Below are positions 2,873 through 36,863 of a stretch of 41,778 bases of DNA, piece after piece. Source of the DNA: Bacteroidales bacterium (lineage in GTDB: Bacteria; Bacteroidota; Bacteroidia; Bacteroidales; ML635J-15). A model generated the notes under the pieces. That model ran no database searches and was not told the DNA's origin. It was given only the letters and a program-made list of their open reading frames with translations. Both the position numbers and the translations under genes were made by a program. Location: positions 1-41,778 of the forward strand of contig JAQIBY010000034.1 of assembly GCA_027858835.1 (NCBI GenBank), given 5' to 3'. The stretch's first letter is position 1; each line of letters starts with the position of its first letter.

Positions 2873-4783
2873 TTAATCTATTGGAAAAATTTTCTGGCGA
2901 TATAAATAATTTAAAATTGTTTCCGGATTTGTTTCTCTATCCTTTGGTGAGAGTTTTAATTCCGGATTTTTCGGAGCATCATATCGTTCATCAATTCCCG
3001 GCATATCTTTGATTTCACCGGCTTCTGCTTTTTTGTATAACTCGGGTTTATTGGTTTTGCAAAACTCAAGCTCAGCATCCATATTAATAACATGAAAGCG
3101 TGACTCGCCAACCAATTCAGCAACTTGCTTGCGGATGCTGTCGTAAGGGGAAATAAACGAACAAATAACAATGTAACCCTGATCATTCAGCATGCGGGCA
3201 ACATGTGCAACACGCCGCAAGTGTTCGGCTCTGTCAGCAGGCGAATGGTCTAATTCATGACTTAATCCTGATCTTACTGTACTGCCGTCCATCAACATAA
3301 CAGTTGCACCTGCATCAAAAAGTTTCCGCTCCAATGTGTAAGCCAATTCGTTTTTGCCGGAACCATGAAGTCCAGTAATCCATAAAGTAGCAGGTTTTTG
3401 ATTAAGAAATTTTGCACGTTCCTCATCAGATATCAATGCTTGTCCGCGACTGATTTTTTGTCGATCATGCTCAGTGATTTTTGCGGGTAGATCTTTTAAA
3501 CTTAATTTGTCGATAATCATCCCTACAGCCGCTGTATTGTTTGTCACCGGATCAATCAGTACAAATGAACCAGTTTCTTTATTTTGCTTATACGGATCAA
3601 AAATCAAGGGCTTTACACTTGTCAAGACAACCCGTCCGATTTCATTCAGCGTAAATGGTGCACTTTCTTCGCGTTCAAGTGTGTTGACATTAATTTTGTA
3701 TTGAATTTTGTCAAAGCGCACTTTTGTGTTATTGTATGAATGCTTGATGTAGTAGTTCGTTGCAGGATTCATATCCTGCTCGTCCATCCATACTAACATT
3801 GCCTCAAAATGGCGTTCAACCCGTGGCATATTGTCCGGATGCACTAACATATCCCCTCTGGACACATCAATTTCATCCTCAAGTGTAATTGTAATTGCTT
3901 GCGGCGGAAATGCTTCGTCTTGCTCGCCTTGTACCCCATGAATAGATTTTACTTTACTTTCTTGACGACTGGGCAGTGCACGAACGGTATCCCCTTTTTT
4001 CACAATTCCTGATGACAGATTACTGGTAAATCCCCGAAAATCAATACTTGGTCTGTTAACGTATTGGATCGGAAAACGAAAGTCCTCAAAATTTCTATCG
4101 CTGTCGACATGAATGGTTTCTAAAAACTGCAGCATGGGCTTTCCGTTAAACCAGCTCATTTTTTCTGATTTATCAACCACATTATCGCCTTTGAGGGCAG
4201 AAATCGGAATAAAATTAATATCTGGAATATTAAGGCTGGTTACAAAGGCTTTATAATCGGCAATAATCTGATTATAACGCGCTTCGCTGTAATCAACGAG
4301 ATCCATTTTATTAATTGCAACAACGACATGTTTAATACCCAATAAACTCACAATAAATGTGTGTCTTTTGGTTTGAGTAATCACTCCATGACGCGCATCA
4401 ACAAGTAAAATTGCAAGGTTAGCAGTTGAAGCACCGGTTACCATATTTCTTGTATATTGCTCGTGTCCGGGCGTATCTGCAATAATAAATTTCCGTTTGT
4501 TAGTTGAAAAATAGCGATATGCGACATCAATGGTAATCCCTTGTTCGCGTTCAGCTTTCAATCCATCCAGAAGCAAGGCGTAATCAATATCATCACCGGC
4601 ATGTCCTACGCGCTTGCTATCACGTTCAAGTGCAGCTAATTGGTCTTCATATAATCGTTTGCTATCAAAAAGTAGTCGTCCGATAAGGGTTGATTTTCCG
4701 TCATCTACAGAACCGGCCGTTAAAATTCTTAGCAAATCTTTCTTTTCGTCCTGATTCAAAAAAGTTTTAATATCTTGTTGCAT
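2873..4783 (-). CDS. cysN: Sulfate adenylyltransferase GTPase subunit CysN fused to an APS-kinase-like domain that appears degenerate
   Basis: Residues 1-440 are the CysN GTPase, which drives APS formation with CysD. G1 is GSVDDGKST (24-32), the switch II motif DTPGHEQY (103-110) and NKMD (158-161), followed by EF-Tu-like barrels. Residues from about 462 are homologous to APS kinase (CysC), and the total of 636 residues fits the NodQ/CysNC fusion. In that domain the P-loop reads GLHGSGKN (471-478), with Asn where Ser/Thr normally binds Mg-ATP. The usual DGDN(I/V)R is DGSTVR (499-504), and the ExRDxKGLY region is CKTNKPELY. It therefore probably lacks kinase activity; an intact CysC is encoded 1 kb upstream in the same operon. 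The gene starts 30 bp after cysD and stops 21 bp before hldA. Confidence 0.93.
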
Positions 4784-4813: not shown

Positions 4814-5722
4814 TTAAAAATATCCCTCACGTTTTTTCTGTTCCATTGAACCGTCTTGGTCAAAATCAATGACGCGTGTTGTTCTTTCGGATTGTGTCGT
4901 TGTCATCATTTCCTCAACAATTTTCTCAATCGTATCGGCTTCAGATTCAACAGCACCTGTAAGTGGGTAACATCCGAGTGTACGGAAGCGAATCATGCGC
5001 ATTTTGGCAGTTTCGGCAAGCTCCTTTGGCATGCGTTCATCATCGACCAAGACCAATGCACCGTTATATTCAACCACAGGGCGTTTTTTTGCATAATAAA
5101 GCGGAACAATTGGAATGTTTTCCAAGCGAATATACTGCCAGATATCGAGTTCTGTCCAGTTTGACAAAGGAAAAACACGAATGGATTCTCCTTTTTTCAC
5201 TTTTGTGTTATAGATATTCCAAAGTTCAGGACGCTGGTTTTTAGGATCCCATTGATGAAATTCATCACGGAAAGAAAAAATACGCTCTTTTGCTCTGGAT
5301 TTCTCCTCGTCACGACGAGCCCCACCAAATGCGGCATCGAATTTATATTTATTCAATCCGGCAAGCAATGCCTGCGTTTTCATGATATCGGTATGAACTT
5401 TCGAGCCGTGTGTAAAGGGACCGACTCCGGAGTTAAAGCCTTCCTCGTTATAATGAACAATTAAATCCCAATTATTTTCTTTGGCATAACGATCGCGAAA
5501 CTCCACCATCTCTTTAAATTTCCATTTTGAATCGATATGCATCAAAGGGAAGGGTACTTTCCCGGGTGAGAAAGCCTTTTCGGCAAGACGAACCATTACG
5601 CTGGAGTCTTTCCCAATGGAATAAAGCATAACCGGATTTTCAAATTCAGCAGCTACTTCACGCATAATGTGAATTGATTCCGCTTCTAATTGTTGTAAAT
5701 GTGTCAGTGAATATGAACTCAT
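4814..5722 (-). CDS. cysD: Sulfate adenylyltransferase catalytic subunit (ATP sulfurylase small subunit)
   Basis: This 302-residue PP-loop nucleotidyltransferase forms adenosine 5'-phosphosulfate from ATP and sulfate as a complex with CysN. The PP-loop SIGKDSS is at 35-41. Other CysD-typical blocks are [47 protein letters not shown] and [14 protein letters not shown], and the C-terminus EKKREGYF-like end (KKREGYF) is characteristic. Length matches the E. coli protein (302). The gene lies between cysC (17 bp upstream) and cysN (30 bp downstream) on the minus strand. Confidence 0.97.
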
Positions 5723-5739
5723 AATTTAATGTTTATCAA

Positions 5740-6345
5740 TTAGTACTTTAAAAAAGGAAGTACACAATCCATGGCTTGGTTTAGGCATTCCTGAACTGAA
5801 TATTTGTCAGTATCTATGACGATGTTTGGATTTTTCGGCTGTTCAAAGGGTGAATCCACACCTGTAAAGTTTTTAATTTCCCCTGCCCTGGCTTTTGCAT
5901 AAAGACCTTTCACATCACGTTTTTCGCAAACTTCGATGGGTGCGTGAACAAATATTTCAACAAAATTTTCCTCACCAATAATATCAATTGCCACCTGACG
6001 AATTTCTTCGGTTGGTGAAATAAAACTATTAATGGTAATTACACCTGAATTAATAAGCAGTTTTGAAACTTCTGCAATTCTGCGAATATTTTCTTTGCGA
6101 TCGTCTTTAGTAAATTTCAGATTGTTATTTATTCCCGAGCGGATATTATCCCCGTCAAGTACCTGTGTTAAATATCCCTGCACATGCAAGGCCTTTTCAA
6201 GATTTTTTGCAAGTGTGGTTTTTCCCGCACCGGACAAACCAGTACACCAAATCACTTTGGATCGCTGTTTTAACAGTTTCTCTTTGTCTTCTCTTTTCAG
6301 TATTTGATCAAATACCGGATAAATGTGATTGTCTTCTGAACTCAT
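5740..6345 (-). CDS. cysC: Adenylyl-sulfate kinase (APS kinase)
   Basis: CysC phosphorylates APS to PAPS, the donor for sulfotransferases and for sulfate reduction. The 201-residue protein has an intact Walker A GLSGAGKTT (36-44), DGDNIRSG (64-71), the FISP segment and EKRDVKGLYAKARAGEIK. All key residues that are altered in the C-terminal domain of the neighbouring CysN are present here, so this is probably the working kinase. It lies 43 bp after cysQ and 17 bp before cysD in the same operon. Confidence 0.96.
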   Translation of the reverse strand: MSSEDNHIYPVFDQILKREDKEKLLKQRSKVIWCTGLSGAGKTTLAKNLEKALHVQGYLTQVLDGDNIRSGINNNLKFTKDDRKENIRRIAEVSKLLINSGVITINSFISPTEEIRQVAIDIIGEENFVEIFVHAPIEVCEKRDVKGLYAKARAGEIKNFTGVDSPFEQPKNPNIVIDTDKYSVQECLNQAMDCVLPFLKY

Positions 6346-6388
6346 TGCTTTGAAATTTCATGTAAAATAAGTGAAATTACAGGAATTA

Positions 6389-7201
6389 TTAAAATTTCAT
6401 TCCTTTTGGTTTAACTAAAAACCACGGATTTCTAAGATTTTTTTTATTATATTGTAATGCTTTCCCGGTTTCCCAATTGATAATTTCTGCTCCTGCTGCA
6501 ACAGCAATGGCATGTCCTGCGGCGGTGTCCCACTCCATAGTAGGTGCAAAGCGAGGGTATAATTGTGCTTTCCCTTCGGCTATCATACATATTTTCAATG
6601 AAGATCCACGAGAAAGCATTTCAGTGTTGAAATGTTTTTCAATTTCGCTGATAAACGCAGTTGTTTCTTCACTTTTATGGGATCGACTTCCAACAATTGT
6701 CAACTTATCTTTAGCATTTTGAACTTTAATTTGTTGCGACTCCGTAAAACTCGCGAATAAATTCTCAAGATTCGTTTCCTCCGAAATAACAATTTTGTAA
6801 GCCGCCTGTTTACTGATTCCAAAATACAATTCACGACTTACCGGCACATAAATTATTCCGGCAGTTGCAATTCCTTTCTCAATTAAAGCGATATTTACGG
6901 TAAATTCGCCGTTACGCTTAATAAATTCTTTTGTTCCGTCAAGCGGATCAACCAACCAAAAGCGTTCCCAGTTTTTTCGTGTCTCAAAGGCTTTATCTTC
7001 GCTCTCCTCACTTAAAACGGGGATCTCGGTTTTTTTCAACGCATCAACAATAATGTCATGTGCTTTTTTATCTGCTTTGGTTAAGGGCGAATTATCCGAC
7101 TTTAATTCAACCTCAAAATTTTCATGATTATAAATCTGAAGGATTGCATTTCCGGCATCTACGGCAGTTTTCAGTACAGGATTAAAAAAATCTTTTGTCA
7201 T
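6389..7201 (-). CDS. cysQ: 3'(2'),5'-bisphosphate nucleotidase CysQ
   Basis: CysQ hydrolyses 3'-phosphoadenosine 5'-phosphate, the inhibitory by-product of PAPS use, to AMP. The 270-residue inositol-monophosphatase-fold protein carries the metal ligands EESED (65-69) and DPLDGTKEF (85-93), then WDTAAGHAIA near the C-terminus. Length fits the family (246-270). It follows the permease gene by 11 bp. Its presence implies real PAPS consumption, but no PAPS reductase or sulfotransferase gene is visible in this window. Confidence 0.94.
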   Translation of the reverse strand: MTKDFFNPVLKTAVDAGNAILQIYNHENFEVELKSDNSPLTKADKKAHDIIVDALKKTEIPVLSEESEDKAFETRKNWERFWLVDPLDGTKEFIKRNGEFTVNIALIEKGIATAGIIYVPVSRELYFGISKQAAYKIVISEETNLENLFASFTESQQIKVQNAKDKLTIVGSRSHKSEETTAFISEIEKHFNTEMLSRGSSLKICMIAEGKAQLYPRFAPTMEWDTAAGHAIAVAAGAEIINWETGKALQYNKKNLRNPWFLVKPKGMKF

Positions 7202-30291: not shown

Positions 30292-31482
30292 CTAAAAACT
30301 CCATTTCCCTCTCAAAAATGCATAGGTTCCTCCCCCGCCTTCATCGGTTGGAATCTCGCTGAAAAAGCTTTGTACGGTTATATCCAACAAAAAATTATCA
30401 GAAATAGAAAATCCGCATGACGGTCCGATAAAAACAAACTGATTTTGAGGCGAATACATTCCGGAAAAACTCAAATTAATAAGCGGGGTTACCGGATAAG
30501 TAAAACTGCTAAAGAAAGTCCATCGGTTATAGGAAAGATTTTTGGCCGAAATTCGCTGCGTATAAAAGTCAGACAAATTAAAGGCTCTGCCTTTGTCAAC
30601 AGATGAGTTAAACATAATTTCCGCCTGAATCATACCGCCATTTTTAAAACTATAATCGGAACCAATACTGGCAATGAACGTTCCGCTGGTATCTGTCGGA
30701 TTATCTAAGGGATGAAAATAACTCATTTCACCTCGAAAAGCAGCATTCCATAGATTTCCTGACCATCCGGCACCCATCACAAAATCATCGCTGTTAAAAA
30801 CTCCAGCAAGTACTTGCACATCGTACTGCCATTTGTTGAACTGATAATATGCTGCTGCCGTAATATTCGTATCCCGATTAACCGCTGCGGCCACCTCTAT
30901 GCGCGATGCGAAATTCAAATAGTATTGTGCCCTAAATGCATCGCTGCCTGGCTTTTCTTCATAATCAAAATCAAAATACGAATAGGCATTAAAAATATCA
31001 TTTGGATTCCACACAAAGCTTTGTCCCCAATTAATGCGTTGTCGTCCTGCTGAAATTTCCCAATTGCCTTTTTGAAATCTCACAAATGCCCTGTCAATGC
31101 TGGTATTAAACAAATAAGAATCGCCTTTTAAAAGATTATGACTCAAATTAAAAAAACCTGCATCGTATTCCGTTTCATCAATAAAATTATAGGCTCCGGC
31201 GGTTCCGAAAAGCGCATTAAATGGTGCTTGAGAAAAAGTCACCATCTCCCCAAAATAAAACCGATTTCTTAAGGAAACTTGTGCATTCAAATATTCTGTC
31301 GGGAAATAGGCAATATCAAAACGATTATGAATCAACCCATTAGTAATCCACATACTGTCAAGCTCCTGAAAACTCACCATTTCCATATATTTCACATAAC
31401 CGTTTACGCTCAGTTTATTTTGCGCTTTTGCACTCATACTAATCAAAACGAAAAATAGTATCAAAATGTAAATCTTTTTCAT
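30292..31482 (-). CDS. Outer-membrane beta-barrel protein (DUF1302/porin-like) of the export operon
   Basis: The 396-residue protein has a signal peptide (MKKIYILILFFVLISMSAKA, then QN). Alternating beta strands run throughout and end at a C-terminal aromatic (RGKWSF), as in barrels inserted by BamA. The segment WEISAGRQRINWGQ with NPNDIFNAYSYF recalls DUF1302-like barrels found with LolA-like proteins and transporters. I infer it is the outer-membrane partner of the LolA-like protein and FtsX/ATPase genes at 33142-37725, now separated by the AAA_14 cassette. Two palindromes (31501-31557) lie just upstream, 19 bp from its ATG. Confidence 0.75.
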   Translation of the reverse strand: MKKIYILILFFVLISMSAKAQNKLSVNGYVKYMEMVSFQELDSMWITNGLIHNRFDIAYFPTEYLNAQVSLRNRFYFGEMVTFSQAPFNALFGTAGAYNFIDETEYDAGFFNLSHNLLKGDSYLFNTSIDRAFVRFQKGNWEISAGRQRINWGQSFVWNPNDIFNAYSYFDFDYEEKPGSDAFRAQYYLNFASRIEVAAAVNRDTNITAAAYYQFNKWQYDVQVLAGVFNSDDFVMGAGWSGNLWNAAFRGEMSYFHPLDNPTDTSGTFIASIGSDYSFKNGGMIQAEIMFNSSVDKGRAFNLSDFYTQRISAKNLSYNRWTFFSSFTYPVTPLINLSFSGMYSPQNQFVFIGPSCGFSISDNFLLDITVQSFFSEIPTDEGGGGTYAFLRGKWSF

Positions 31483-31500
31483 TGGTCTTATTTTATTTTC

Positions 31501-31557
31501 TTTCGACTATACTCGAATCTTTCTAATAAATTCAACTTTATTTCGATTATACTCGAA
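31501..31557. repeat. Left pair of 40-bp-spaced palindromes flanking the AAA_14 gene
   Basis: TTTCGACTATACTCGAA (31501-31517) and TTTCGATTATACTCGAA (31541-31557) are exactly 40 bp apart. They are imperfect palindromes of the same type as the right set at 32825-32921. The sequence following each left unit resembles that following the corresponding right unit, so the pair is a diverged copy of the right flank. They lie between the AAA_14 stop and the barrel gene. Confidence 0.75.
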
Positions 31558-31568
31558 GCTTTTGTTAA

Positions 31569-32792
31569 TCAAAACAAGTCTTCTTTTAATAAAAAATCTT
31601 CTATGTTCATCCAATAAATACCACGTTCATTAACAGATGGACTGCCTTTATCCAAAGAAATTACATATTTGGTAAAATGATTATCCAAGTGCTTAAAAGC
31701 CCCATATTCACGATCTAATGTTTTCTCGGAAGCCAACACAGATGTTGTTACTTGAACATAGATTTTTTTGTTATTTTGTGTTGCGATAAAATCAATTTCC
31801 TTATCCTTAATTTTTCCAATCGTAACATGATATGCCCGAGATACCAATTCAAGATAGACTATATTTTCTAATTTTCCTGAAATCGTATCCGGTGCATTTC
31901 CAATTAAAACAGTGGACAAACCAATATCTGCCATGAAATATTTTTCATAGGTTTCTAATAATCGTTTTCCAAGGATATCAAATCGTTTCGTTTTATGTAT
32001 CAACAGAGCATTCATAACATATTCTAGATATGCCAATACAGTATCAGGAGATACAACTCGTTGTTGAGATTTACTAAAATCACTGATTTTTTTTGCAGAG
32101 GTAATATTTCCACAATTTGATGCGACAAAATCTATAATATGTTTGAGCATATTGACATCCCTGATACTATTACGCATCACAATGTCTTTTAAAACCACAG
32201 TATTGACAATAGATTCCAGATATTGACGTAGCACAGTTTCATCCCAATCCAGATGATGCAAACCCGGAAAACCACCATATTTCAAAAAGTCAATAAATAC
32301 ACTATTTGATTTATCTACTGAAGCTTTTTGAGCATATATGGTTTTAAATTCGCTGAAAGTAAAAGTATAAACCGGAAACTCTATGTATCTGCCTGATAAC
32401 AGACTAGCTAGATCGGAGGATAACAAACGAGCGTTCGATCCACTTATAAAAATATCATAATTTGATTCTGCTAAAAAAGAATTGATTGCTTTTTCCCATT
32501 GTGATATCTCCTGCACTTCATCAACAAATAAATAATACGTTTGCTTATCATCACTGGATTTTTGCTTCACATATTGATATAAATCCTGATAGGTTTTTAT
32601 GCTATCAAATTTCATTAGTTCTTTATTAATTCTAATGATACGAAAATCATCAATTCCTTTTTCCAACAGCTCTTCAACAATTTGCTTTAATAAAGTACTT
32701 TTACCACTACGACGAATCCCTGTCAATACCTTAATTACAGGTTTATCAATAAATGGTCTTATGCGATTTAAATATTTTTCCCGTTTAATCAT
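31569..32792 (-). CDS. AAA_14/DUF4143 ATP-binding protein in a palindrome-flanked cassette
   Basis: The 407-residue protein begins MIKREKYLNRIRPFIDKP, with Walker A GIRRSGKS (25-32), Walker B YYLFVDEVQE, an arginine-containing SGSNARLLS, and a C-terminal DUF4143 region. That region's nuclease-like core reads KEIDFIATQNNKKIYVQV; the usual E-x-K of PD-(D/E)xK folds is QVT, so nuclease activity is doubtful. The ATG at 32792 is preferred, because a GTG at 32810 lies within the -7 box. It interrupts a transport operon and is bracketed by 40-bp-spaced palindromes. Function of this widespread family is unknown; regulatory, defence or selfish roles are all open. Confidence 0.88.
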   Translation of the reverse strand: MIKREKYLNRIRPFIDKPVIKVLTGIRRSGKSTLLKQIVEELLEKGIDDFRIIRINKELMKFDSIKTYQDLYQYVKQKSSDDKQTYYLFVDEVQEISQWEKAINSFLAESNYDIFISGSNARLLSSDLASLLSGRYIEFPVYTFTFSEFKTIYAQKASVDKSNSVFIDFLKYGGFPGLHHLDWDETVLRQYLESIVNTVVLKDIVMRNSIRDVNMLKHIIDFVASNCGNITSAKKISDFSKSQQRVVSPDTVLAYLEYVMNALLIHKTKRFDILGKRLLETYEKYFMADIGLSTVLIGNAPDTISGKLENIVYLELVSRAYHVTIGKIKDKEIDFIATQNNKKIYVQVTTSVLASEKTLDREYGAFKHLDNHFTKYVISLDKGSPSVNERGIYWMNIEDFLLKEDLF

Positions 32793-32809
32793 ATACGTTT
32801 TGTTTTTCA

Positions 32810-32817
32810 CAAAGATA
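32810..32817 (-). promoter_or_regulatory. -7 box of the AAA_14 gene promoter
   Basis: TATCTTTG on the minus strand (32817-32810) matches TAnnTTTG. The palindrome at 32825-32841 occupies the -15 to -33 region and there is no TTTG there, so a protein bound to the palindrome could repress or activate this promoter. Confidence 0.65.
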
Positions 32818-32824
32818 TATTTTA

Positions 32825-32921
32825 TTTCGATTACGGTCGAATCTTTTTATCAATCTTAGCCTTATTTCGATTATAATCGAATGTTTTGTTGTTTTTAACA
32901 AGTGTTTCACTTATCGTCGAA
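32825..32921. repeat. Right set of three 40-bp-spaced palindromes upstream of the AAA_14 gene
   Basis: TTTCGATTACGGTCGAA (32825-32841), TTTCGATTATAATCGAA (32865-32881; its 16-bp core is a perfect palindrome) and the decayed TTTCACTTATCGTCGAA (32905-32921) are each exactly 40 bp apart. Spacers after units one and two resemble those of the left flank (TCTTT...; TTTTGTT...AACAAGT). The spacing and conservation mark a tandem array with a function or a mobility history. Confidence 0.75.
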
Positions 32922-33141
32922 TGTTTTTCTGGGCAGCTTACCGTCTGCGGCTTTTAGTTGCCACTTGCTCTGCTACTGCTCCGTTCGCTTCATCAGGGGC
33001 TTCCCGTCACCATTTTCCCAAAAAACGGTAAAATGTCTCCGGGCAAAGCCATCGGTCGCCCTGTTCAGCGGGAGCAGCTTTACATCGCAAGCGTCAAGCT
33101 AAGCACCTCCGCCGGGCTGCAAAAATCCTGCTAGCACAATC
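32922..33141. other. G+C-richer non-coding island between the palindrome array and the ABC ATPase
   Basis: About 210 bp are clearly richer in G+C than the neighbours and contain no credible gene; the frame at 32902-33102 is a low-quality open frame. It directly abuts the last palindrome and ends about where the ABC ATPase gene stops, so it may be part of the inserted cassette or a separate dispersed repeat. Confidence 0.45.
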
Positions 33142-33825
33142 TTACTGCCCTTTATCCTCTTTTATTTTTCCATCCTCAATGGTAATAATACGCCTTGCTT
33201 TATTCACCACTCGCTGATCATGCGTTGAAAAAACAAAAGTGATATTTTCTTTTCGATTGAGTTCTTCCATAATACTCAGCAAATTTTCAGTTGATGCTGA
33301 ATCCAAATTGGCAGTGGGTTCATCCGCAAGAATAAATTTCGGACGTGATGCCAATGCTCGTGCTACAGCCACTCGCTGCTGCTGTCCTCCGGACATTTTC
33401 CCGGGCCGTGATTTCAATCGGTCACCGAGACCAACCGCTTCAAGCATTTCTATAGCACGTTGTTCCCGTTCTTTTTTATTCCATTTCTGCATTTGCATAA
33501 TAAATTCCACATTTTCTTTGGCGGTTAAAACAGGAATTAAATTATAAGCCTGAAACACAAATCCGATATTTTTTAATCGAAAATTAATAATCTGTTTATT
33601 GCTCAATTCACCGATATTTATCCCATCAATAATTACTTCACCTTCTGAGGGTTTATCCAATCCACCAAGCAAATTCAAGAAAGTAGTTTTCCCCGAACCG
33701 GACGGTCCGACAATCGCAGTAAATTCACCTTGTTCAATACTTAAATCAATGCCGTTAACAGCATGCACAGGAATTTCGCTTCCGTTATAAATTTTATGCA
33801 AGTTTTGGGTTTCTATAATTTTCAT
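33142..33825 (-). CDS. ABC transporter ATP-binding protein, LolD/MacB type
   Basis: The 227-residue ATPase has Walker A GPSGSGKT (40-47), the signature MSGGQQQRVAVARAL, Walker B FILADEPTANLDS and a switch His (STHDQRV). The start MKIIETQNLHKIYNGSEIPV and overall length match LolD/MacB-like subunits that serve FtsX-type permeases. It would energise the two permeases encoded immediately upstream (17-bp gap). The pump probably moves lipids or lipoproteins between the membranes rather than a small solute. Confidence 0.95.
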   Translation of the reverse strand: MKIIETQNLHKIYNGSEIPVHAVNGIDLSIEQGEFTAIVGPSGSGKTTFLNLLGGLDKPSEGEVIIDGINIGELSNKQIINFRLKNIGFVFQAYNLIPVLTAKENVEFIMQMQKWNKKEREQRAIEMLEAVGLGDRLKSRPGKMSGGQQQRVAVARALASRPKFILADEPTANLDSASTENLLSIMEELNRKENITFVFSTHDQRVVNKARRIITIEDGKIKEDKGQ

Positions 33826-33842
33826 GATATCTGATTTTAATA

Positions 33843-35066
33843 TTAATTACTACTGATAATTTCTGCCGGTTTCATTTTTCCAGCACGTATAATCGGGAAA
33901 ATTGCCGCTACCAAAGCAGTAACAATAACAAGTGCGACAATTTGCAGATAGAAATTCAAACTAATTTCAGGATAAAGCACTGCACTGAATCCAAAGGATG
34001 AAAAACCTTCAGCATACGCACTGAGATTAATCCCATTTTTAGCAGTAAGACTAACAAGTATCTGGTTTATTAGCAATCCCGCAAAAGAACCAATGAGGGT
34101 AAGGAAAATAGTTTCCCAAATAATCATTCGTCGAATTTTCCCTTGATGCATTCCGACAGCCATCAGCATACCAAGCTCTTTTTTGCGCTCTAAAATCGAC
34201 ATGAGCATGGTATTAATAATGCCAAAAGCCAAGGCAAACATAATAATGGCCACTAGATACCAAAGAAATTGCTCTGTCATCATATTCATCATACCGAGGT
34301 CTGGATTTATTGCTTTCCAGTTTTTCCCATCAATCGATTCAGGTAAAATTGCCTGTATTTCCTCACTCCGACTTGTCAGATTTTCGTTATCGGTAAAACG
34401 CAATGCAATTTCATGCGCATCGGTTGGAATAAAACCTGCAATCGACTCAAAATCGGCTCGTTTAACAAAGATATGCATATCGTCAAACATCTGATTATCT
34501 GTATGGTAAATACCTGCTACACGAAATGCGCCACCAGTCAAATCTGCATTTACATCAAGAAAAGTCAATACCGGTTTCGATCGCATTTTTAATTTTAATT
34601 TATCCGCCATGCTACTGGATAATATGACTTGATTTTTACCATCTGTTTTAAAGAAATCCCCCTCAACAATGGCATTTTCCAGTTCCGTTACGCGAATTTC
34701 ATCTTCAGGATTAATCGCCAGTAATATTGCTCCTGTATTTTGATATGGGGATGCAATGCTGCAATCAATTTTCAAACGAGAGCTTCCTGCCTCAACAAAA
34801 GGTTTTTTAAGAATTTCAGGTAAAAACGCATTTACATCAGACATATAGTTTCCGATTTCAGGGTTATCCAAAAATCCCTTTTTATGAATCTGAAAATGCG
34901 AAGACTCATTATTAATGGCTTTTTCAATGCGTTGATTTACTGCACCAACCATTACAGCCGTAGAGAATCCACCTCCGACCATTCCAAAGCAAACTGCAAT
35001 AATTACCACTAAACTTCGGGTCGGGTTTCTCCAAATATTTCGCCAAGCTATTTTTATAATTTCCAT
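33843..35066 (-). CDS. FtsX-family ABC permease (second of pair)
   Basis: The 407-residue inner-membrane protein begins EIIKIAWRNIWRNPTRSLVV, the typical LolC/E-MacB amphipathic entry to TM1. A periplasmic MacB-PCD domain of roughly 220 residues follows, then three C-terminal TM segments with ERKKELGMLMAVGM, the coupling element seen in LolE/FtsX proteins. It is paralogous to the permease just upstream (18-bp gap) and the two may form a heterodimer with the ATPase. Confidence 0.92.
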   Translation of the reverse strand: MEIIKIAWRNIWRNPTRSLVVIIAVCFGMVGGGFSTAVMVGAVNQRIEKAINNESSHFQIHKKGFLDNPEIGNYMSDVNAFLPEILKKPFVEAGSSRLKIDCSIASPYQNTGAILLAINPEDEIRVTELENAIVEGDFFKTDGKNQVILSSSMADKLKLKMRSKPVLTFLDVNADLTGGAFRVAGIYHTDNQMFDDMHIFVKRADFESIAGFIPTDAHEIALRFTDNENLTSRSEEIQAILPESIDGKNWKAINPDLGMMNMMTEQFLWYLVAIIMFALAFGIINTMLMSILERKKELGMLMAVGMHQGKIRRMIIWETIFLTLIGSFAGLLINQILVSLTAKNGINLSAYAEGFSSFGFSAVLYPEISLNFYLQIVALVIVTALVAAIFPIIRAGKMKPAEIISSN

Positions 35067-35084
35067 AATTTAATTTTTTATCGT

Positions 35085-36299
35085 TTAACGAATGGCTTTT
35101 GATACATCAATTTTAAACACTGAAAGCAAAGGATAGGTGATTGCCAAGAGTGCAATGATAATGACGACGGCTGTTTGTCCATAAAAATATCCGGGTTCCC
35201 AGGCAATCGGCATAATCGGTTCCATACCGTAAGTTTCAAAAATGGCTTCAATTTCTCCTGAAAAACGCAATGGATTCAAATGCAAATAATACATTACCGG
35301 AATTCCGGCTCCGATCGCCAAAATAACACCGACAAATACAATAAAAAGCGTTTCAATTGTCACCAAAATAGCCAGTTTTGTTTTTTGCATCCCAACCGAA
35401 ACCATAATTGCAAATTCCTTTTTTCGTTCGGCAATCATCATCAGTACCGTTCCAAAAATCCCAAAGCCAATCACAATGTATAGTATCATTAAAATAATCA
35501 TTCCACTGGCATTATCGGCTTCAATTCCTTGCATTATTTCCGGCGACATTGTTTCCCAATGCATTACTTCATAATCTTCAGGTATTATACTCCGAATTTG
35601 TGCTGTGGTTTCTTTGTAAAGTTCATTGTCTTCCAACATGACAACCCAAGCACTTAATCCACCGTTTAAACTCAGGTATTCTTGAGCAATTTCAATGTCC
35701 ATATAGCTAATTTGGCGATTAATTCGTGGATCAGGATATGAAATAATGCCAAGCACAGGATATAAACCGGCTGCCGAGTACCCATGATATCCCTGCCCAA
35801 TATAAACAGCAGTATCTCCAACTTGCAAATGAAGAAATTCCGCCAGCTTTTCGCCAAGCACAACACCGGGTTCTCCACGTTTAGGAAATCGTCCCTCGAC
35901 AAGTTTGTCTTTGATTTTTGTAAGATTATTGTCTTTTTCAGCATCAATGCCCATTATCATTGCCGGTTTCGATTTATTATCTGCAGCAATTAAAGAGCCG
36001 GCTTGCAATCTGGGTAATAAACCTACAACATTATCCTGCTTCAAAATTACAGATTTCAGACTGTCATTAACAAAAAAGCTGTTGTCAAGAATGGGGTCGT
36101 CATGATATCCGTCTTCATGAATTTGAACATATCCGCTAAAGTATTCCACAGAATTTTTGATCATGTGATCGTAAGTGCCTAATTGGAGCCCACGCATAAG
36201 AATAGCAAGGAATAAGGCAAAGAAAATAGAAGACACTGTAATCAGCGTTCGCTTTCTATTTCTCCATATGTTTCGCCAAGCGAGTTTTGTGTAGTTCAT
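35085..36299 (-). CDS. FtsX-family ABC permease (first of pair)
   Basis: The 404-residue protein has the same plan as its neighbour: YTKLAWRNIWRNRKRTLITV at the start, a periplasmic domain at about 45-260, then three TM segments with ERKKEFAIMVSVGMQKTKLA. Together with the other permease and the LolD-like ATPase it forms a LolCDE/MacB-type complex. Upstream of its ATG lies a 168-bp heptamer array (36307-36474) belonging to the four-helix-bundle cassette, which separates it from the LolA-like gene. Confidence 0.92.
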   Translation of the reverse strand: MNYTKLAWRNIWRNRKRTLITVSSIFFALFLAILMRGLQLGTYDHMIKNSVEYFSGYVQIHEDGYHDDPILDNSFFVNDSLKSVILKQDNVVGLLPRLQAGSLIAADNKSKPAMIMGIDAEKDNNLTKIKDKLVEGRFPKRGEPGVVLGEKLAEFLHLQVGDTAVYIGQGYHGYSAAGLYPVLGIISYPDPRINRQISYMDIEIAQEYLSLNGGLSAWVVMLEDNELYKETTAQIRSIIPEDYEVMHWETMSPEIMQGIEADNASGMIILMILYIVIGFGIFGTVLMMIAERKKEFAIMVSVGMQKTKLAILVTIETLFIVFVGVILAIGAGIPVMYYLHLNPLRFSGEIEAIFETYGMEPIMPIAWEPGYFYGQTAVVIIIALLAITYPLLSVFKIDVSKAIR

Positions 36300-36491: not shown

Positions 36492-36863
36492 TTAGTATTT
36501 TAGGTTCTCCTTAGTTAAACGAATTAGAACATTTATTTCCTTTAGGATATCATCAATTGATAAACTCAATTCTTTATATTGCTCTTCACTAATTAAATTT
36601 CTTCGATACGATTTATTCAGCCAATCTATACACTCAAATCCCGAACCTCTAGAATATCTATAGAAATTAATTTTGTCTTTCTTAAAATGTCGCCCCTGAC
36701 TCTCTGCAATATTCGCGGAAATTGAATCTGCTGCTCTTGTAAATTGCAATCCCAGAGATTTTTTTTCAAAGCTTTCCCATTTGGAGACAAAATTCCAAAC
36801 TGTATCTGAAAACTCTGTTGCTTTCTGATATGCCGGGATGTCTGTTAGTTCGAATATTTTCAT
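36492..36863 (-). CDS. Four-helix bundle protein (23S rRNA intervening-sequence protein family)
   Basis: The 123-residue protein has the family pattern: YQKATEFSDTVWNFVSKW, then SLGLQFTRAADSISANIAES and GRHFKKDKINFYRYSRGSGF with ECIDWL. The family was first found inside 23S rRNA intervening sequences, and free-standing copies are common and of unknown function. Here the gene sits inside a transport operon with heptamer arrays on both sides (36307-36474, 36876-36931) and a 15-bp direct repeat (36472-36486, 36947-36961). I infer that it is a mobile or selfish cassette rather than a working part of the operon. Confidence 0.92.
   Translation of the reverse strand: MKIFELTDIPAYQKATEFSDTVWNFVSKWESFEKKSLGLQFTRAADSISANIAESQGRHFKKDKINFYRYSRGSGFECIDWLNKSYRRNLISEEQYKELSLSIDDILKEINVLIRLTKENLKY

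Follow-up and report, generated by a model that had tools for sequence, protein, structure and literature searches.

A one-gene AAA_14/DUF4143 unit with a 40-bp operator array in a Bacteroidales operon: a likely member of a family of mobile elements

Why should a single gene inside a bacterial operon be bracketed by palindromes spaced exactly 40 bp apart? The case arises on contig JAQIBY010000034.1 of a Bacteroidales bacterium (ML635J-15; assembly GCA_027858835.1), of which the whole stretch of 41,778 nt was analysed (the window). The gene (31569..32792, minus strand) is assigned by Pfam, PADLOC and a structure model to an AAA+ ATPase (AAA_14), winged-helix, PD-(D/E)XK-like (DUF4143) architecture. 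The original prediction had offered two readings of the palindromes, an autoregulatory operator array duplicated during insertion or the recombination sites of a one-gene cassette. Our comparison of related loci makes it likely that the window gene belongs to a large family of mobile elements consisting of a single gene, many of which carry an operator probably read by their own protein and a minority of which are flanked by long target duplications.

We first describe the array itself. The motif TTTCGATTATAATCGAA was matched with at most 3 mismatches by four units of no assigned strand. Two lie left of the gene (31501..31517 and 31541..31557; motif match) and two to its right (32825..32841 and the perfect palindrome 32865..32881; motif match and flank alignment). 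There were 7 strand-matches to this motif in the window, a number reached by 0 of 100 shuffles. Five palindromes had been predicted, a pair at 31501 and 31541 and a triplet at 32825, 32865 and 32905. The fifth (32905..32921, no strand; TTTCACTTATCGTCGAA), placed by sequence and flank alignment, is in register but degenerate; it falls outside the matches with up to 3 mismatches and, compared as a 23-mer, agrees with the reference copy at 83%. Steps within the groups measured 40, 40 and 40 bp, exactly as predicted. Scanned without a motif, the window gave one pair of palindromes at 40 bp, whereas 40 shuffled windows averaged 0.025, and the pattern TTCGANTATANTCGAA was restricted in this genome to the window locus, where it occurs in 3 places. 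The left spacers had been said to resemble the right ones, making the flanks diverged copies of one array, and this was confirmed by alignment: 89 bp before the porin-like gene downstream (31494..31582) and 89 bp of the operator array upstream (32818..32906), neither assigned a strand, form a direct repeat of 75% identity with a score of 41, compared with a maximum of 25 in 500 shuffles.

On the minus strand, 8 bp separate the end of the palindrome at 32826-32841 from the box TATCTTTG (32810..32817, minus strand), which we take to be a Bacteroidota-type -7 box. The first right palindrome thus covers the -33 region of the gene's promoter, again as predicted, and its 8-bp gap to the box is the commonest one in the family. 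Because an alternative GTG start at 32810 overlaps this box, translation more likely begins at the ATG at 32792.

To see how far this layout extends, 125 gene loci (120 distinct) were assembled, 116 of them with enough upstream DNA. The controls were 105 neighbouring genes which, being taken from the same loci, are not a fully independent sample. A palindrome was scored when a 16-mer with a TATA centre and at least 14 of 16 symmetric positions lay no more than 150 bp upstream. Such palindromes preceded 46 of 116 family genes compared with 2 of 105 neighbours (Fisher P = 3e-13; shuffled mean 1.6, maximum 5), so that palindromes away from such genes, which would speak against the original prediction, were found only at this low level. 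A partner at 40 bp was present at 27/116 loci and at 1/105 control genes (P = 9e-8), making 40 bp the commonest spacing beside AAA_14/DUF4143 genes in relatives; partners were found at 39 bp in 8 loci, at 80 bp in 8 and at the remaining lags in 0-3. Among 73 palindromes, the gap to TAnnTTTG was 8 bp in 21 cases, the next commonest being 17 bp with 4 cases. In a common arrangement, a palindrome stands on either side of TAnnTTTG at a distance of 8 bp. The loci from named genomes, which span many phyla with Bacteroidota among them, had a palindrome in 33 of 84 cases and a 40-bp step (any centre) in 17 of 84. Judged from these positions, the predicted operator overlaps its own promoter at a fixed phase.

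Palindrome and protein were also found to change together. In a sample of 85 loci, the 139 pairs at 60-80% protein identity had 13.5 of 16 palindrome bases in common, compared with 5.2 of 16 in the DNA next to it. Among pairs less than 60% identical, palindrome and protein were correlated with r = 0.27 (reached by 0 of 2000 permutations), whilst adjacent DNA gave r = 0.06 (84 of 2000). The correlation was 0.37 for residues 201-300, 0.21 for the AAA domain and 0.10 for the nuclease, and the middle region did not exceed the AAA domain in a fraction of 0.002 of 500 bootstraps. Scanned in 20-residue windows, it peaked at 196-215 (0.41) and again reached 0.32 at 236-260. An AlphaFold model of the window protein (mean pLDDT 86.9, pTM 0.89) has helices and a helix-helix-helix-strand unit in this middle region, which may be read as a lid plus winged helix. 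As the palindrome sequence co-varies with the protein, and most with this lid/winged-helix region, the encoded protein probably reads its own operator. Taken together, the family-wide palindromes, their 40-bp steps and this co-variation lend strong comparative support to the predicted autoregulatory operator array.

What kind of protein is this? Pfam placed AAA_14 (E 9.4e-31, 106.9 bits; cut-off 27) before DUF4143 (E 3.8e-15, 56.4 bits; cut-off 28.1) in the window protein, both above curated cut-offs and in the arrangement that defines the AAA_14/DUF4143 (PDC-S01) family. The PADLOC profile PDC-S01, a single-gene defence candidate, likewise identified it as a member (E 1.9e-144, 479.5 bits). 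AAA-type domains and DUF4143 were the sole Pfam matches, with no transposase domain and no HUH Y1 transposase among them; NCBIfam returned no family above its cut-off and no transposase. Among solved structures, a search by sequence returned 4 weak matches, none named as a DUF4143 protein. The best structural matches of the model were archaeal Walker-type ATPases, 2QEN of Pyrococcus abyssi (Z 18.2, rmsd 3.3, 269 residues; model residues 3-304) and 2FNA of Sulfolobus (Z 18.1, rmsd 3.7, 274 residues; model residues 3-303; Foldseek E 2.8e-8), the match covering the AAA and winged-helix parts but not the DUF4143 nuclease end. ATPase modules of NLR and apoptosome proteins scored lower (Z 13-17). 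No transposase was seen among the 50 structural matches listed; MuB (8xvc, Z 12.7) was there as one AAA+ protein of many.

Evidence that the gene moves comes from sites with and without it. Presence and absence at matching sites were found in a genus of 99 species, at hsdR, in a phage and in the permease-ABC-porin operon of the window. Locus L111 (genome G421, filled) and locus L156 (G426, empty) have collinear flanks (89% and 87%), and L111 holds an insertion of 1.3 kb made up of 81 bp, the gene and 10 bp. The target, an 80-bp terminator-like stretch between convergent genes, is present there in two copies of 98% identity and once in the empty L156. Two TTTAAAGTATATTTAAA palindromes flank TATATTTG in the inserted unit, with a 40-bp step as counted by eye. 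The same site is occupied by the unit in G422 and by an internally deleted remnant in G428.

At the 5' end of hsdR, the site is filled in L117, L423 and L425 (G446, G420 and G417). No similarity to the unit was found in the 1.5 kb before hsdR in L422, L424, L426, L427 or L429-L432, and the right-side homology of these empty loci starts at one same query base (60 bases later in L428 and 192 in L434). A 43-bp orphan start of hsdR precedes the unit in L117, that is, a 43-bp duplication. In G452:C11, 29 bp from the start region of hsdR are repeated without a mismatch 2.2 kb upstream of the gene (72012-72040 and 74223), which suggests another insertion at this place. In phage L302, the unit stands after the large terminase gene together with 118 bp duplicated from the 3' end of that gene; 3.3 kb of this phage, a second ATPase gene included, is missing from L341. 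That second gene (5551-7002) is distantly related and directly follows the unit. A family gene at the terminase position was also present in L377, 1 of 80 related terminase loci. The target duplications at the three compared sites are thus 43, 80 and 118 bp, neither short nor of fixed length.

The same unit was also found in different surroundings. Between L147 and L153, 188 bp and the gene alone are common in the DNA compared, and around the gene the Acinetobacter plasmid L335 has in common with L451 or L453 only the stretch from -109 bp to the stop codon. Of 188 records with the Acinetobacter unit, 55 of the best 60 begin at the same left base as the L335/L451 unit. Across the cases compared, the unit comprises about 80-190 bp of upstream DNA and the AAA_14/DUF4143 gene, and ends 0-13 bp after the stop codon. 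Two further candidates for movement were rejected: the L137-L144 group as an empty/filled pair, since it proved to be tandem paralogous permeases with a vertically inherited gene, and identical copies in G420 as a recent move, since 6,908 bp are identical on two contigs. The latter (L135 and L136, on G420:C27 and G420:C41) are in opposite orientation and represent an assembly duplicate or a recent segmental duplication. No empty sites were found for L055 and L098, the flanking gene occurring in 1 of 3 genomes of each group. On comparison of sequences the family behaves as a mobile element, present or absent at matching sites and found as the same unit at different ones.

Empty sites and the unit's occurrence in unrelated contexts support the cassette half of the original prediction. 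Its other half, the palindromes as recombination sites, was rejected: of 82 loci with a palindrome upstream, just 2 (the window and L045) have a similar one downstream, and the direct repeats at sites with an empty relative are copies of host target DNA rather than palindromes.

The same comparisons bear on whether the gene is instead an ordinary phage-defence system of one gene (PDC-S01) whose promoter is autoregulated and which, like other defence genes, comes and goes by general recombination, being mobile only passively. The PDC-S01 match is consistent with this, the ATPase-nuclease architecture fits, and PDC-S01 has been presented as a candidate for defence that abounds in archaea and bacteria (PMC12988326). 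Copies also stand beside hsdR and, in L451, beside WYL-DUF1819-DUF1788 genes, which we take to be BREX genes. However, passive exchange does not predict that units end at their own operator and stop codon in unrelated contexts, nor that the target duplication is present once in the empty site, and adjacency to defence operons is equally expected of an element that lands everywhere. We regard passive carriage as somewhat unlikely, whilst the defence and mobile-element readings are compatible. On the Acinetobacter plasmid L451, the unit (4948-7177) lies before the WYL, DUF1819 and DUF1788 genes, an embedding that mobility would explain.

Next, direct repeats around the gene were compared with those around control genes. 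Flanking direct repeats with a score of at least 25 were found at 24 of 110 family loci compared with 5 of 105 control genes (P = 2e-4), and 3 of these 5 control genes lie near family genes on contigs of the window's own genome. The sample from the whole order gave 20/64. Where the repeats could be named, they are pieces of host DNA: 3' ends of genes for a histidine kinase, rpiB, a glycosyltransferase and terminase, as well as the 3' side of ssb; the 5' ends of creD and hsdR; a whole 74-codon gene; the groES leader; and part of a tRNA-Arg gene. No clear flanking repeat was present within 1.3 kb of the Acinetobacter plasmid loci L335 and L336. In the Lachnospira eligens plasmid L340, an exact 25-bp repeat lies on both sides of the family gene (upstream -177 to -152, downstream 56 to 81).

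Could the unit be a cassette that does not move itself but is carried in trans, by an unrelated transposase or integrase or through replication errors, with the AAA protein regulating only itself? The gene has no recognisable transposase domain, its catalytic lysine is missing and its target duplications differ in length (43, 80 and 118 bp), all of which fit such a cassette. To our knowledge, no transposase leaves target duplications of such variable length. Against movement in trans, the units compared carry no other gene, and inspection by eye showed no end sequence common to them. Inverted similarity between 300-bp flanks (score at least 25) was found at 2 of 110 loci and 1 of 105 controls, a search that shorter inverted ends would escape. 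We consider this explanation improbable.

How does the window's own site fit? The unit interrupts an operon whose genes all lie on the minus strand. Two FtsX/MacB-type permease genes (33843..36299; Pfam) and an ABC ATPase gene (33142..33825; Pfam and the operon of relatives) precede the insertion, and an outer-membrane porin-like gene (30292..31482) follows as the next gene of the operon. The last is identified from the operon of relatives; it matched no Pfam family at E 0.001, and "porin" is our own label. The site was examined in 15 loci, 5 of 7 from one set and 10 from another, and the porin directly follows the ABC gene in 8 of them. The operon is uninterrupted in G006, G491, G304 and G498 and, within the same family, in G506, G507, G517 and G527. 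The gene is present between ABC and porin in the window and in G508, whose copy is 62% identical and has two palindromes 40 bp apart; G526 has a pair of the same spacing after its ABC gene, beyond which the contig ends. G001 (same genus; no porin in the DNA examined), G516 and L457 (contig end) were uninformative. G508 also has a Bro-N domain gene at this site (L471, 844-1680), and a similar one stands alone before the porin in G514 (L476), so the spot takes up different inserts.

The relative G507 helps to explain the left pair of palindromes. It lacks the gene, yet its intergenic DNA aligns in register with the right array of the window (score 33, reached by 0 of 500 shuffles). The ABC-porin sites of G506, G517, G006 and G491 gave no such alignment. 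Given an array in G507 without the gene, the left pair of the window is most simply a relic beside a later or tandem copy. Most likely an earlier or tandem copy left this operator behind, or else it is an operator-containing target duplication, and recombination between two direct copies of the array would yield the state of G507. Alternatively, the left array may be a functional operator that puts the porin gene, too, under the control of the element's protein. A pair of good palindromes with a 40-bp step, some 20-75 bp from the porin start codon, would suit this role, and an array-like stretch precedes the porin in G507 too. By contrast, no -7 box was seen after the left array, the G507 copy is decayed and has no family gene beside it, nothing similar occurs in the empty relatives G506 and G517, and downstream palindromes were found in just 2 of 82 loci. 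Control of the porin by the element is thus doubtful.

Beyond the array, a G+C-rich stretch lies between it and the ABC gene (32930-33130). In G001, DNA that looks alike by eye comes after the ABC gene (L031, 1-785), and the stretch is probably a dispersed repeat. A gene for a 23S rRNA intervening-sequence protein (PF05635) is present at 36492-36863 of the window.

Several observations weigh against a family of self-moving elements. Orthologous operons lacking the gene were found, but at the DNA level these relatives have diverged too far for the insertion boundaries in the window to be fixed with single-base precision. The hsdR comparison is one-sided because left neighbours differ among the species inspected, and the distance from the left flank to the duplication is about 107 bp in L111 and about 36 bp in L156, an unexplained difference. 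Repeats are present in few loci of most samples (4/46 in the densely sampled genus, 9/79 in named genomes, 4/54 in viruses and 0/5 in plasmids), and some of those counted are low-complexity or dispersed (L100, L065, L091, L050 and L057). At the threshold used, 70 of 116 loci have no TATA palindrome; just 7 of 59 virus loci have a palindrome, and 2 of 59 a 40-bp step. The ranking of single residues for co-variation is mixed, with G183 in first place and A127, in the AAA domain, in second. Numerous copies have been inherited vertically or are old, as in the L137-L144 group. In two family alignments, E315, D340 and Q353 of the nuclease-like domain do not vary (31 of 31 and 40 of 40 sequences), but the canonical PD-(D/E)XK lysine is absent, the motif there reading Q353-V-A/C/T, and catalysis by this domain is therefore uncertain. 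The movement is deduced from sequence comparison.

How might such an element work? Dimers of the encoded protein would bind the palindromes through the lid/winged-helix region and, once bound, would cover and repress the promoter, so that the element limits its own expression. More speculatively, this protein, which combines an AAA+ ATPase with a PD-(D/E)XK-like fold, might nick the target with a wide stagger and insert a copy of its own gene, fill-in then giving the long target duplication. The family could represent a new class of autonomous transposable element, in which a single AAA+/winged-helix/PD-(D/E)XK protein recognises its promoter palindromes, represses itself via them and copies its bare gene by widely staggered nicking, with duplications of tens to hundreds of bases, but we advance this stronger proposal only tentatively.

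The family is widely spread. Of the 393 genomes of the order, 283 hold relatives of the window protein. In one genus they occur in 94 of 99 species, a genome having between 0 and 19 matches, and these counts are lower bounds. Named genomes of many phyla yielded at least 585 relatives, from which 80 loci were kept, and relatives also occurred in 235 plasmid records, 18 phage records and 70 virus loci. The window's own genome has 7 DUF4143 genes, 5 of which (C84, C85, C115, C11 and the window) have direct repeats of at least 77 bp on both sides; those of C115 and C11 may be dispersed, because both recur elsewhere on the contig. The C85 repeat contains the 3' end of rpiB, with intact rpiB on the other side. 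C82 has an array on one side alone, and no array or repeat was found at the C121 gene. The C84 gene (L012) is bracketed by 77-bp direct repeats of 81% identity (2491-2567 and 3726-3802), each consisting of two palindromes of about 30 bp. Both repeats abut the gene as in the window, but the palindromes are unrelated to the window's. In L148 (G395 C48; 2721-12408 in reverse complement coordinates), three family genes alternate with genes for secreted repeat proteins, and the DNA before the first is 95% like that before the second, which looks like tandem cassette growth beside surface-protein genes.

How does the family compare with known systems? REP-associated tyrosine transposases (REPtrons/RAYT) are one-gene elements linked to palindromes matching their own protein, and the AAA_14/DUF4143 unit is also one gene with palindromes matching its own protein. 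The family gene differs in having no HUH/Y1 domain and in carrying its palindromes on the promoter side, with the window one of only 2 in 82 loci with palindromes on both sides. Tn7-like transposons combine the AAA+ protein TnsC, the PD-(D/E)XK protein TnsA and the DDE transposase TnsB, and make 5-bp target duplications. An AAA+ ATPase joined to a PD-(D/E)XK fold for DNA insertion would be a likeness, but the family has a single polypeptide, no DDE TnsB and duplications of 43-118 bp at the compared sites rather than 5 bp. From classical DDE insertion sequences it differs in having neither a transposase domain nor a short target duplication of fixed length.

PDC-S01 is described in the accessible part of one survey as an ATPase fused to a PD-(D/E)XK domain, the fourth most common prokaryotic "defence", with 9,986 counts in archaea and 29,494 in bacteria and with validation pending for most such candidates (PMC12988326); in rumen genomes it is the most frequent individual locus, as stated in the available part of another (PMC13356809). 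Both treat it as a defence candidate, and the portions at hand do not describe the 40-bp operator, its co-variation with the protein or the long target duplications. A literature search, mostly outside subscription journals and preprints, found nothing on mobility or operators of the AAA_14/DUF4143 family.

The 40-bp operator would let the site of each protein be predicted from its own upstream DNA. If these genes are one-gene mobile elements, the abundance of PDC-S01, its embedding in operons and its copy number (at least 19 matches in one genome) would have to be interpreted afresh. An element of one gene that lacks a known transposase, has operators matching its own protein and leaves long target duplications would, if true, represent a new way of moving DNA.

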